Source: a virus
Virus record (IMG/VR): IMGVR_UViG_3300030451_000034
Location: 1-20,069 of that record
DNA length: 20,069 bases
Reading direction: 5' to 3' (one strand)
Positions 1,136-5,313 of this stretch are shown here, one piece after another. Position numbers and translations under genes: made by a program. The notes under the pieces were generated by a model. That model had not been told where the DNA came from. It made no database searches and worked only from the letters and a program-made list of their open reading frames with translations. How positions within the stretch are numbered: position 1 is the stretch's first letter; each line of letters starts with the position of its first letter.

Positions 1136-2339
1136 GAGCCTGATGGACAAGTCCTTCTACGATGACCATCGTGGCTCGAAATGTCCGCAGCGCCTGTTCA
1201 GTAAGGACGTGCGGAAGATTAAGCAGTCTATCGACACTGCTATGGACAGGTACGAGCGGAGCGTCACGCCCGACGAGATTGAAGCCCTGTTCATGTCGGA
1301 CAACCCGACACTGACTACTGCGCAGAAGCAGGCATATTCTAGCCTGTTCTCGCAGATTAAACGCGAAGAGCCTATGGGCAGCGACGTGGCACAGGAAGTG
1401 CTGTCCAAGCTGTTCCAGCAGGTCGTTGGCGAGGACGTAGCAAACATTGGCTTTGATATGGTCAATGGTGATGCGGCCAGCCTTGAGGCTCTGCGTAACC
1501 TGCTTGAGCGTTACGGTGACGACTTCATCCCCAACCTCAATATTGAGTGGGATGACATCAGTATTGAGACACTCATGGCGAAGGCTGAACTTGAAGCACG
1601 TTGGACTTTCAACATCCCAAGCGTGGCACGTAAGGTCGAGGGTGTGTCGGGTGGTCAGCTTATCGAAGTTGGCGCACGGCCTAACACTGGCAAGACATCG
1701 TTCCATGCCAGCCTGATTGCCAGCCCCGGCGGGTTTGCACATCAGGGTGCCAAGTGTATCATCTTGTGTAACGAAGAGCCTACGCACCGTGTCGGCGCAC
1801 GTTACCTTACGGCAGCAGCAGGCATGTCTGCCCGTGAAGTGCGGGACAACATGTCCAAAGCACAGGCACTGTACGCTCCTGTGATGAACAACATCAAGAT
1901 TAAGGAAGCGGGAGGTCGTGACATGGCATGGGTTGAGTCCGTATGCAAATCCTACCAGCCTGACATCCTTGTGCTTGACATGGGTGACAAGTTTGGCGTA
2001 CAGGGTTCCTTCGCTCGACAGGACGAGGCACTCAAGGCGTGTGCTATCTATGCACGTCAGATTGCCAAGACCTACGAGTGTGCCGTGTTCTACATGTCAC
2101 AGCTATCTGCAGAGGCAGAGGGTCGCGCACAGTTGAACCAGAGCATGATGGAGGGTAGCCGTACTGGTAAGGCTGCGGAAGCTGACCTGATGATACTGAT
2201 TGGCAAGTCACCAACAGTTGAGGGTCAGGAAGAAGACAGCCCCCTTCGCCATATCAACATAGTGAAGAACAAGTTGAATGGCTGGCACGGTATGGTAAAC
2301 TGTGAACTCGACTATCAGACAGCGAGGTATGAAGGATGA
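1116..2339 (+). CDS. Replicative DNA helicase, DnaB/gp4 superfamily 4
   Basis: This 407-residue protein has an N-terminal helical domain (about residues 1-150) and a RecA-like ATPase core. Walker A is GARPNTGKTS at residues 186-195; Walker B is DILVLD at 283-288; FYMSQLSAEAEGR near 327-339 fits the DNA-binding/sensor region of SF4 helicases. It should unwind duplex DNA as a hexameric ring and work with the separate primase upstream. Two starts are possible: ATG 1116, with GGAG seven bases upstream and a 20-base overlap with the primase, or ATG 1143, with AGGAG four bases upstream and no overlap. I chose 1116 because the extra residues (MELSIIRSL) look like the start of the N-terminal helix. 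The 3' end overlaps the polymerase start as ATGA. Function is secure; the start is less so. Confidence 0.9.
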   Translation: MELSIIRSLMDKSFYDDHRGSKCPQRLFSKDVRKIKQSIDTAMDRYERSVTPDEIEALFMSDNPTLTTAQKQAYSSLFSQIKREEPMGSDVAQEVLSKLFQQVVGEDVANIGFDMVNGDAASLEALRNLLERYGDDFIPNLNIEWDDISIETLMAKAELEARWTFNIPSVARKVEGVSGGQLIEVGARPNTGKTSFHASLIASPGGFAHQGAKCIILCNEEPTHRVGARYLTAAAGMSAREVRDNMSKAQALYAPVMNNIKIKEAGGRDMAWVESVCKSYQPDILVLDMGDKFGVQGSFARQDEALKACAIYARQIAKTYECAVFYMSQLSAEAEGRAQLNQSMMEGSRTGKAAEADLMILIGKSPTVEGQEEDSPLRHINIVKNKLNGWHGMVNCELDYQTARYEG

Positions 2340-4378
2340 AGATAACACTTGATGTAGAGAACACCGTCACCAAGCGTGATGGTAAGATGCACCTTGACCC
2401 ATTCGAGCCAGACAATACGCTGGTCATGGTGGGTATGCTGACTGACCAAGGCCAGTGTCTGACGTTCCCATTTGACCACGCTGACCGTCCTAATCAGGAC
2501 GACTACTATGAGCGTGTGCAGATGATGCTGGATGAAGCTACCGTGCTTATCTGCCACAACGCAGCGCATGACTTGCTGTGGCTGTGGGAGTCAGGCTTCA
2601 AGTACGACGGCCCTGTGTTTGACACGATGCTGGCAGAGTATGTCCTGCAGCGTGGGCAGAAGCAGCCGCTGTCGCTTGAGGCATGTGCAGAGCGTTACGA
2701 ACTGGACACCAAGAAGCAGGATACCCTCAAGGAGTATTTTGCCAAGGGTGTTAGCACTCGTGACATTCCGTACAACGAATTGACAGAGTATCTTATTGCG
2801 GACCTTGAAGCTACGCAACAGCTTTCTGACAAGCAGATGCTGCGCCTTAATCGTCAGGAGGATGCCGGTCTCAAGGGTACGGTGGAACTCACCAATCAAG
2901 TTGCTGTGTGTCTGTCGCGCATCTATCAGCGTGGTTTTGCTGTGGACCTGAATGCACTGGACACAGTGCGCGAAGAGTTTGAGCAAGAGCGTGATGACCT
3001 TGAGCGTGACTTGCAAGCCCATGTACGTAGACTGATGGGTGACACCCCTATCAACCTGAACAGCCCAGAACAACTGTCGTGGGTTGTGTACAGTCGCAAG
3101 GTTACAGACAAGCAGTATTGGGGCAACAGCATTGACCCCTATCAGTCGGACAACACCTTTCGCGGGTTGATGAATGAACTGACTGAGCGATTGTACAAGA
3201 CTAAGGCAACACAGTGCCGTGAGTGTAATGGCTCCGGTCAAGTACGAAAGGTGAAGAAAGATGGAACACCATTTGCACGAACTAATAAATGTACATCATG
3301 TGGTGGGGCTGGTTATCATCTTGTGGCTGGCAAAGAGTTGGCTGGACTAAAGTTTAAACCACCCGGCCCGAAGTGGGCTAGTGCCAATGGGTTCAGCACA
3401 AGCAAGCAGAACCTTGAGACACTGGAGAAAGCAGCACGTGTCAAAGGAATGACAGATGCTGTTGACTTCTTGTCAAAGGTTCGACGCCTGTCTGCTGTAG
3501 ATACATACCTGTCGTCCTTCGTGGATGGCATCCGTATGTACACCAAGCAAGATGGTAAGCTGCACGTCCGTTTGACACAGCACATGACATCGACAGGCAG
3601 GTTCAGTGGTCGTGACCCTAACATGCAGAACATGCCACGTGGCGGTACGTTTCCTGTTAAGAAGGTATTCGTGTCCCGCTTTGATGGTGGTAAGATTATG
3701 GAAGCAGACTTTGCACAGCTTGAGTTTCGTGCTGCTGCTTATCTCTCACAGGATGGAGTTGCAATTGAAGAAGTATCTACTGGGTTTGATGTACACTCAT
3801 ATACCGCTAAAGTTATTACCGACGCTGGTCAACCTACGGATAGGCAGACTGCGAAGGCTCACACGTTTGCACCGCTTTATGGCGCAACAGGCTTTGGGAG
3901 AACGGCAGCGGAAGCAGAGTATTACACGCACTTCACGGAGAAATACGAGGGTATCGGGTTATGGCATTCCAGATTGGCTAAAGAAGCTATAGCCACTGGC
4001 AAGATTACCACGCCTTCTGGTCGTGAGTTTGCCTTCCCTGATGTGGTGCGTAAGCCAAATGGCCGTGTGTCCCACTTCACACAGATAAAGAACTACCCTG
4101 TGCAGTCTTTCGCTACTGCGGACATTGTTCCGATTGCACTGCTGCACATTGATAAACTGCTTGACGGTATGCAGTCTTGTGTGGTAAATACTGTGCATGA
4201 CTCAATCGTCGTTGACGTTCACCCAGATGAAGAAAGGAGAGTTATCGACATAATACACCAGACAAACAAGGAGTTGCCTGATTTGATTACTATACGTTGG
4301 GGGTTAGTATTCAATGTACCACTACTACTAGAGGCAAAAATTGGCCCCAACTGGCTTGACACGAAAGATGTGTCGTGA
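2336..4378 (+). CDS. Family A DNA polymerase with 3'-5' exonuclease and DnaJ-like zinc module
   Basis: This 680-residue protein is the replicative polymerase. Proofreading exonuclease motifs are intact: Asp6 and Glu8 (DVE), Asn75/Asp79 (HNAAHD), Tyr152/Asp156 (YLIAD). There is no 5'-nuclease domain. Polymerase motif A is ADFAQLEFR (457-465, catalytic Asp458), motif B has Arg503, Lys507, Phe511 and Tyr515 in R-x3-K-x3-F-x3-Y spacing, and motif C is HDS with His621 and Asp622. Between the thumb motifs INLNSPEQL (239-247) and FSTSKQNLETL (353-363) sits a roughly 100-residue insertion with two DnaJ-type zinc knuckles, CRECNGSG (294-301) and CTSCGGAG (319-326). A partial DnaJ central domain in a phage PolA is a known trait of HMO-2011-type phages. 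The gene starts by ATGA overlap with the helicase. Phe511 corresponds to E. coli Pol I Phe762, which affects nucleotide discrimination. Confidence 0.96.
   Translation: MKITLDVENTVTKRDGKMHLDPFEPDNTLVMVGMLTDQGQCLTFPFDHADRPNQDDYYERVQMMLDEATVLICHNAAHDLLWLWESGFKYDGPVFDTMLAEYVLQRGQKQPLSLEACAERYELDTKKQDTLKEYFAKGVSTRDIPYNELTEYLIADLEATQQLSDKQMLRLNRQEDAGLKGTVELTNQVAVCLSRIYQRGFAVDLNALDTVREEFEQERDDLERDLQAHVRRLMGDTPINLNSPEQLSWVVYSRKVTDKQYWGNSIDPYQSDNTFRGLMNELTERLYKTKATQCRECNGSGQVRKVKKDGTPFARTNKCTSCGGAGYHLVAGKELAGLKFKPPGPKWASANGFSTSKQNLETLEKAARVKGMTDAVDFLSKVRRLSAVDTYLSSFVDGIRMYTKQDGKLHVRLTQHMTSTGRFSGRDPNMQNMPRGGTFPVKKVFVSRFDGGKIMEADFAQLEFRAAAYLSQDGVAIEEVSTGFDVHSYTAKVITDAGQPTDRQTAKAHTFAPLYGATGFGRTAAEAEYYTHFTEKYEGIGLWHSRLAKEAIATGKITTPSGREFAFPDVVRKPNGRVSHFTQIKNYPVQSFATADIVPIALLHIDKLLDGMQSCVVNTVHDSIVVDVHPDEERRVIDIIHQTNKELPDLITIRWGLVFNVPLLLEAKIGPNWLDTKDVS
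3215..3313 (+). other. DnaJ-type CxxCxGxG zinc-knuckle pair inside the DNA polymerase
   Basis: These bases encode polymerase residues 294-326, holding CRECNGSG and CTSCGGAG separated by a basic 17-residue linker. Each is a textbook CxxCxGxG repeat as in the cysteine-rich domain of DnaJ. DnaJ has four such repeats binding two zinc ions; two repeats here would bind one. The module lies in the thumb, where it could contact duplex DNA or a processivity partner; that role is inference. It is not evidence of chaperone activity, since no J domain or HPD motif is present. Confidence 0.9.
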
Positions 4379-4419: not shown

Positions 4420-5313
4420 ATGGAACTGACAACTATTGACACTAACAACTATGCCGCTATGGCGAAGGCTATGGGCATTGCAAACGAGACTGCTGGTGAG
4501 CGCAAGCAAGCCAGCACCCTTGCTCGTCTGCGCATCAATCACTCACCTGTCATGGGTGAGGCAGAGGTGAACGGCAAGAACGTAAACATGGAAGTGATAG
4601 CCGGTGGCACCTACCGTCTGGAAGTACCAGATGGGCCAACCTACTACGCAGAGTCGGTGAAGATTCGTCCGTACCTGCAACGCTTCATGTACAAGCGTTT
4701 TGTCCGTGGCATGGGTGACAGCCCTAACCGCTATGTGAAGACTGTCATGGCGGATAACCTGAACATCGACCTCAAGGACAATGATGGTGGGTTCAACTGT
4801 GGTAAACCCGCTGGCTACATCCAAGACTTCAAGTCCCTGCCTGAGAAGACGCAGGAACTTATCAAGCAGATTAAGCGTGTTCGCGTTGTGCTTGGTACAG
4901 TCGAACTGGTCAATGCCACAGATGCATCAGGCAATCCTGTGGAAGTAGACGAGACTGCCTTTATCTGGGAAGTCGATAACCGTGACGCCTTTAAGAACGT
5001 GGGCGGTGCGTTTACCCAGCTTGCTAAGATGAAGCGTCTGCCTGTGCAGCATCTGATTACTGCGAATACAGAGGAGCGTAAGATTCCTACTGGTGCAGTG
5101 TTCTATCTGCCTGTGGTATCTCTGGACGTTACCAAGACACTTGAACTGACCGATAAGGAACAGGGCATGTTTGGTGACTTCATGCAGTGGGTGAACAACT
5201 ACAACGAGTACATCATCAATGCATGGGCAGAGAAAGCTAACTCACACGACGACGAAGATGACGAGGCCATTGTAGACGGCATCGTTGATATCGAAGTAGA
5301 AGAGGTAGCGTAA
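4420..5313 (+). CDS. Putative phage single-stranded DNA-binding protein (acidic C-terminal tail)
   Basis: This 297-residue protein is not recognised as a known family with certainty. Its body mixes beta-strand-like stretches (about residues 45-80) with basic and aromatic residues, including a YLQRFMYKRFVRG segment (85-97) suited to binding nucleic acid. It ends in a strongly acidic tail, DDEDDEAIVDGIVDIEVEEVA, of the kind that T7 gp2.5, T4 gp32 and bacterial SSB use to recruit partners and block nonspecific binding. It lies between polymerase and exonuclease, where many phages keep their SSB or recombination mediator. It has its own near-consensus promoter and a clear GAGGAG site nine bases before ATG 4420, fitting a protein needed in bulk. 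The SSB role is inference; a RecT/Erf-like annealing protein is the main alternative. Confidence 0.5.
   Translation: MELTTIDTNNYAAMAKAMGIANETAGERKQASTLARLRINHSPVMGEAEVNGKNVNMEVIAGGTYRLEVPDGPTYYAESVKIRPYLQRFMYKRFVRGMGDSPNRYVKTVMADNLNIDLKDNDGGFNCGKPAGYIQDFKSLPEKTQELIKQIKRVRVVLGTVELVNATDASGNPVEVDETAFIWEVDNRDAFKNVGGAFTQLAKMKRLPVQHLITANTEERKIPTGAVFYLPVVSLDVTKTLELTDKEQGMFGDFMQWVNNYNEYIINAWAEKANSHDDEDDEAIVDGIVDIEVEEVA

Follow-up and report, generated by a model that had tools for sequence, protein, structure and literature searches.

What is a cysteine-rich insert doing in the thumb of a phage family A DNA polymerase? The question is raised by a stretch of 20,069 nucleotides from an IMG/VR virus record (hereafter the window), in which the polymerase carries two CxxCxGxG motifs. 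The first-pass annotation of this DNA described them as DnaJ-type zinc knuckles and suggested that they might be an independent solution to processivity or partner binding.

The window is a fragment of an HMO-2011-type phage, as judged by the identity of its polymerase and by its gene order. The polymerase gene (2336..4378, on the plus strand, as are all features given below) encodes a 680-aa family A DNA polymerase with a 3'-5' exonuclease, which we recognized from its translation, Pfam matches (DNA_pol_A, 4e-51; exonuclease, 3.5e-8), an AlphaFold2 model (pLDDT 91.3, pTM 0.83), and Foldseek, in which the top matches of the model were the Bst and Klenow polymerases. It is 76% identical to the polymerase of Puniceispirillum phage HMO-2011, with which the window also shares the order of its replication genes, and 37.6-76% identical, over 99-100% of its length, to those of the cultured members of the group. 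These values are above the threshold that we used for membership (at least 25% identity over 80% of the length to cultured members). As is typical of the group, exonuclease and polymerase domains are joined in one protein, with the two CxxCxGxG motifs between them. At the left edge of the window, a 111-aa open reading frame (6-341) resembles the C-terminus of a tyrosine integrase and occupies the place of the HMO-2011 integrase, consistent with the existence of temperate members in the group.

The insert is a known hallmark of these polymerases. Three publications describe a partial DnaJ-like region with two CxxCxGxG motifs in HMO-2011-type phages (PMC6918029, PMC8528129, PMC9038755), as the annotation had said, so the insert is not new. 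The annotation had also called its job untested; the open-licence literature on HMO-2011-type polymerases describes the region, and we found no functional test there.

The two motifs are exactly where the annotation placed them, and their CxxC pairs are kept in all the relatives examined. Motif 1 (CRECNGSG, residues 294-301; 3215..3238) and motif 2 (CTSCGGAG, residues 319-326; 3290..3313), identified by sequence and by conservation among relatives, lie in the thumb between the anchors INLNSPEQL (residues 239-247) and FSTSKQNLETL (residues 353-363). Among 200,000 shuffles of the polymerase protein, none had two CxxCxGxG motifs and 95 had one. Both CxxC pairs were present in all 347 relatives (262 + 85), a set that was chosen without a cysteine filter and that includes two contigs each present twice under different metagenome-assembled genomes (MAGs), and also in 10 cultured phages. 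Across 119 diverse polymerases, with identities down to 37%, the four cysteines, G299, and G326 were invariant. The glycine part of the motifs is otherwise degenerate, and the full double CxxCxGxG was missing from 113 of the 262 relatives. From these sequences, C294, C297, C319, and C322 can hold one zinc, not two. When the insert alone was used as query against 50,697 phage records, there were 12 matches, all to HMO-2011-type phages; other collections were searched for the module with longer polymerase queries only. Each contig found twice (L401/L402 and L404/L405) sits in two MAGs whose assigned phyla differ (Flavobacteriales TMED123 and Neomarinimicrobiota MED589), so these MAGs are no reliable guide to the host.

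The insert is larger than the annotation had it, and its constrained part is the tip. It spans about 98 residues (255-352; 3098-3391) and includes a variable helical part ahead of the zinc site. Based on the secondary structure of the model, thumb helix H (residues 205-234; 2948..3037; helices H and I are named by analogy to Klenow) is followed by helix H1 (PEQLSWVVY, residues 244-252; 3065..3091), the anchor before the insert, whose region aligns with FNLSS of E. coli, FNPSS of T7, and FNPNS of the sister phages. The first part of the insert (residues 255-286; 3098..3193) has predicted helices at 259-265 and 272-282. Then come two predicted strands, residues 287-293 (3194..3214) and 327-335 (3314..3340), that enclose the zinc motifs, and between the motifs is the tip loop QVRKVKKDGTPFARTNK (residues 302-318; 3239..3289), defined by its charge and by Lys/Arg conservation. 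After the insert, model and alignment place the second anchor, helix H2 (residues 357-369; 3404..3442), and the model then shows helix I (residues 373-402; 3452..3541). The mean conservation of the protein was 2.73. The zinc motifs (3.08 and 3.11) and the tip (2.82) were above it, the variable first part (2.13) and the second strand (1.86) were below it, and we therefore take the tip to be the constrained part.

The tip loop is basic in every relative. The loop between the cysteine pairs had a net charge of +3 to +11 in 328 of 328 sequences; this set is smaller than the 347 above because it alone required a complete open reading frame with the motif. The share of Lys or Arg among relatives was 97% at K305, 100% at K307, 86% at K308, and 92% at K318. 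The loop was 12-13 residues longer in 57 of 317 polymerases, and the CRP-738-like subgroup (L318-L397) had the most basic loops, with a mean charge of +9.

The likeness to DnaJ is partial. The module aligned with positions 12-52 of the DnaJ cysteine-rich profile (PF00684) at 26.2 bits, under the gathering cut-off of 32.7, and PF00684 has four CxxCxGxG motifs and two zinc centres where the polymerase has two motifs only. Compared with E. coli DnaJ, the module profile matched only motifs 2 and 3 (zinc centre 2), and it matched the antiterminator Q of phage lambda as well. Lambda Q was the best match in the PDB, a weak one (phmmer E of 0.3), and the module matched a Q-like PHROG family at 2.8e-6. 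For these reasons we read the module as a single putative zinc-finger-like site, not a DnaJ domain: the "DnaJ-type zinc knuckles" of the annotation stand as to the two motifs, with one possible zinc and a likeness to zinc centre 2 only.

The module is very unlikely to serve in recruiting a host protein (DnaK, thioredoxin, or the beta clamp, for example). Precedents exist in the literature, in that zinc centre 2 of DnaJ is reported to matter for DnaK and T7 uses host thioredoxin at its thumb insert. However, a search of the polymerase for a J-domain gave no match, the sole HPD tripeptide being in the palm after motif C, and DnaJ motifs 1 and 4 were not found; recruitment of DnaK is unlikely on these grounds, and the missing J-domain led us to set it aside. 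There was no convincing beta-clamp motif in the polymerase, and the few clamp-like strings all lie outside the insert.

The case for thioredoxin is weakened further by the site of the insert: the T7 thioredoxin-binding loop sits elsewhere in the thumb. The T7 loop runs from about residue 258 and ends ahead of FNPSS at residue 334, whereas the zinc insert comes after INLNS, the equivalent of FNPSS. The order given in the annotation (T7 loop, then the INLNSPEQL equivalent, then the zinc module) thus agrees with the alignment anchors. We found no insertion of the T7 type, before the FNPSS thumb helix, in the window polymerase. A direct profile alignment in which the T7 loop and the zinc module overlapped was dropped because the two anchors show a different order, and the T7 loop could not be placed in a MAFFT alignment either.

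Polymerases without the zinc motifs have a hairpin at the same site. The nearest zinc-free relatives among those compared were polymerases of Zobellviridae. The stretch bounded by the two anchors is 109 residues long in the window polymerase, 60-65 in Zobellviridae, and about 25 in the E. coli and T7 enzymes. In some Autographiviridae the insert is longer, with a basic tip of the same kind. A confident AlphaFold2 model of a Zobellviridae-like polymerase (L409) has a long beta-hairpin at the H1-H2 site (strands 243-255 and 265-276; pLDDT about 90 in this region) with a basic tip and no zinc motifs, so that a two-stranded hairpin linking H1 to H2 is predicted in zinc-bearing and zinc-free polymerases alike. 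A basic K-x-G...G-x-x-K tip was present in most of the sister phages compared. In some Autographiviridae and related phages (L490-L494, L096) the conserved basic tip is roughly G-[KP]-x-x-G-x-x-K-T and is unnamed in the literature that we found. Several zinc-free polymerases are split into two genes (L092:1453-3546, L095:1492-3602, L093:1483-3398, and L409-L488), the first encoding exonuclease and thumb and the second palm and fingers, in some with a small open reading frame between.

With a basic beta-hairpin already present between H1 and H2 in the zinc-free sisters, the zinc module most likely elaborates an older basic hairpin, to which the zinc motifs were added later. A profile alignment of zinc-bearing and zinc-free polymerases anchored both flanks of the insert (E of 9e-42). 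When the zinc tip was compared in isolation with the tip of the sister hairpin, their sequences had no significant similarity (hhalign E of 0.19), so the argument for a common origin is one of position and topology. In a tree of 23 rows, a branch with support 92/97 set the zinc-bearing polymerases apart, and the hairpin-bearing group adjoined them, with moderate support at the join and long-branched outgroups. The "independent solution" proposed in the annotation therefore holds insofar as the site is unlike that of the T7 loop, but the module was probably not inserted from nothing, as the sister hairpin was already there.

The sister hairpins also bear on whether the zinc site might be a structural staple for the thumb hairpin and nothing more, touching neither DNA nor a partner itself. 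Small zinc sites often act as structural staples, and the sister hairpins manage without zinc. A pure staple, however, would not require the tip lysines to be almost as conserved as the cysteines, as they are here, and we consider this explanation unlikely.

The explanation that we favor, with a probability of roughly one half, is that the module is a zinc-stapled basic hairpin at the tip of the thumb that holds duplex DNA behind the active site and makes the enzyme more processive with no need of a host factor. One zinc held by C294, C297, C319, and C322 would staple the end of the beta-hairpin between H1 and H2 and fix the short lysine-rich loop (K305, K307, K308, and K318). These lysines would most likely hold the nascent duplex by its phosphate backbone, keeping the enzyme on the DNA without a factor such as thioredoxin, in an elaborated form of the basic hairpin of the sister polymerases. 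We consider this the most likely job because the loop combines a position at the thumb tip with fixed positive charge, and it is from this position and charge that we infer contact with DNA. The thumb tip of Klenow-type polymerases contacts product DNA and affects processivity; we found no open-licence paper on deletions of it. One structure gives reason for caution. The crystal structure of the phage polymerase DpoZ has a mobile beta turn (8-9) in the thumb, ahead of helix alpha-12, which, from the order of elements, is probably the same hairpin. The hinge motion of this turn reportedly leaves DNA binding undisturbed, and the hairpin here therefore need not touch DNA.

An acidic protein tail could be the ligand of the basic loop just as well, and this is the main rival to a grip on DNA. 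The gene directly downstream of the polymerase (4420..5313) belongs to no known family and has an acidic C-terminal tail; together with its homologues, it is a candidate new family of single-stranded DNA-binding proteins (SSBs), and its product is a possible partner of the polymerase. The tail was strongly acidic in 88% of 262 homologues, compared to 3.3% of 875 control open reading frames, and this difference makes docking of the tail of the phage's own SSB, probably encoded by this gene, on the zinc tip a serious rival. It is in keeping with a tip that is basic in all relatives and with reports that the tail of the T7 SSB (gp2.5) binds the thumb insertion of its polymerase. On the other side, the downstream product had no match in the PDB, Pfam, or PHROGs, nor to T7 gp2.5, so it is no more than a candidate SSB. 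The charges of tip and tail did not compensate each other: within subgroups they were not significantly correlated, between subgroups the sign was wrong, and we rejected co-variation of the two. On balance, docking may occur but is doubtful, and we continue to favor the grip on DNA.

HMO-2011-type phages rank among the dominant viruses of the sea (PMC9038755). The hallmark of their polymerase is the zinc insert, for which the literature that we found gives no test of function. The hairpin common to the zinc-free relatives is a natural control that makes a role in gripping DNA easy to test. If the zinc tip changes the grip on DNA, it would be a compact, self-contained route to a processive family A polymerase.

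Compared with known systems, the window polymerase does not differ essentially from published HMO-2011-type polymerases (PMC9038755, PMC6918029, PMC8528129), with the same order of exonuclease, partial DnaJ-like region, and polymerase, and is another member. The zinc-free hairpin of Zobellviridae and some Autographiviridae shares with the module the site, the two strands, and, in most cases, a basic tip; it differs in the absence of the cysteine motifs, in an insert about 50 residues shorter in Zobellviridae, and in belonging to polymerases that are often split. The module shares with zinc centre 2 of DnaJ the matching cysteines and glycines of motifs 2 and 3, but its loop is longer and strongly basic. 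The zinc finger of lambda Q (4MO1, 7UBM) has two CxxC pairs at a similar spacing and is likewise inserted in a DNA-binding protein, one that is a transcription factor; this finger and a helix-turn-helix have been proposed to read DNA. A link between thumb insertions and processivity factors is established in T7, and one has been proposed in the organellar polymerases of plants. The T7 gene 5 loop is, like the module, a thumb insertion with basic residues in a phage polymerase, but it lacks a zinc motif and binds host thioredoxin. We tentatively suggest that, in one lineage of marine phages, an old hairpin of the thumb became a zinc-stapled grip on DNA, and that the lineage may so have reached high processivity of a family A polymerase with neither a host nor a phage clamp, at a position and by a chemistry unlike those of the T7 loop.
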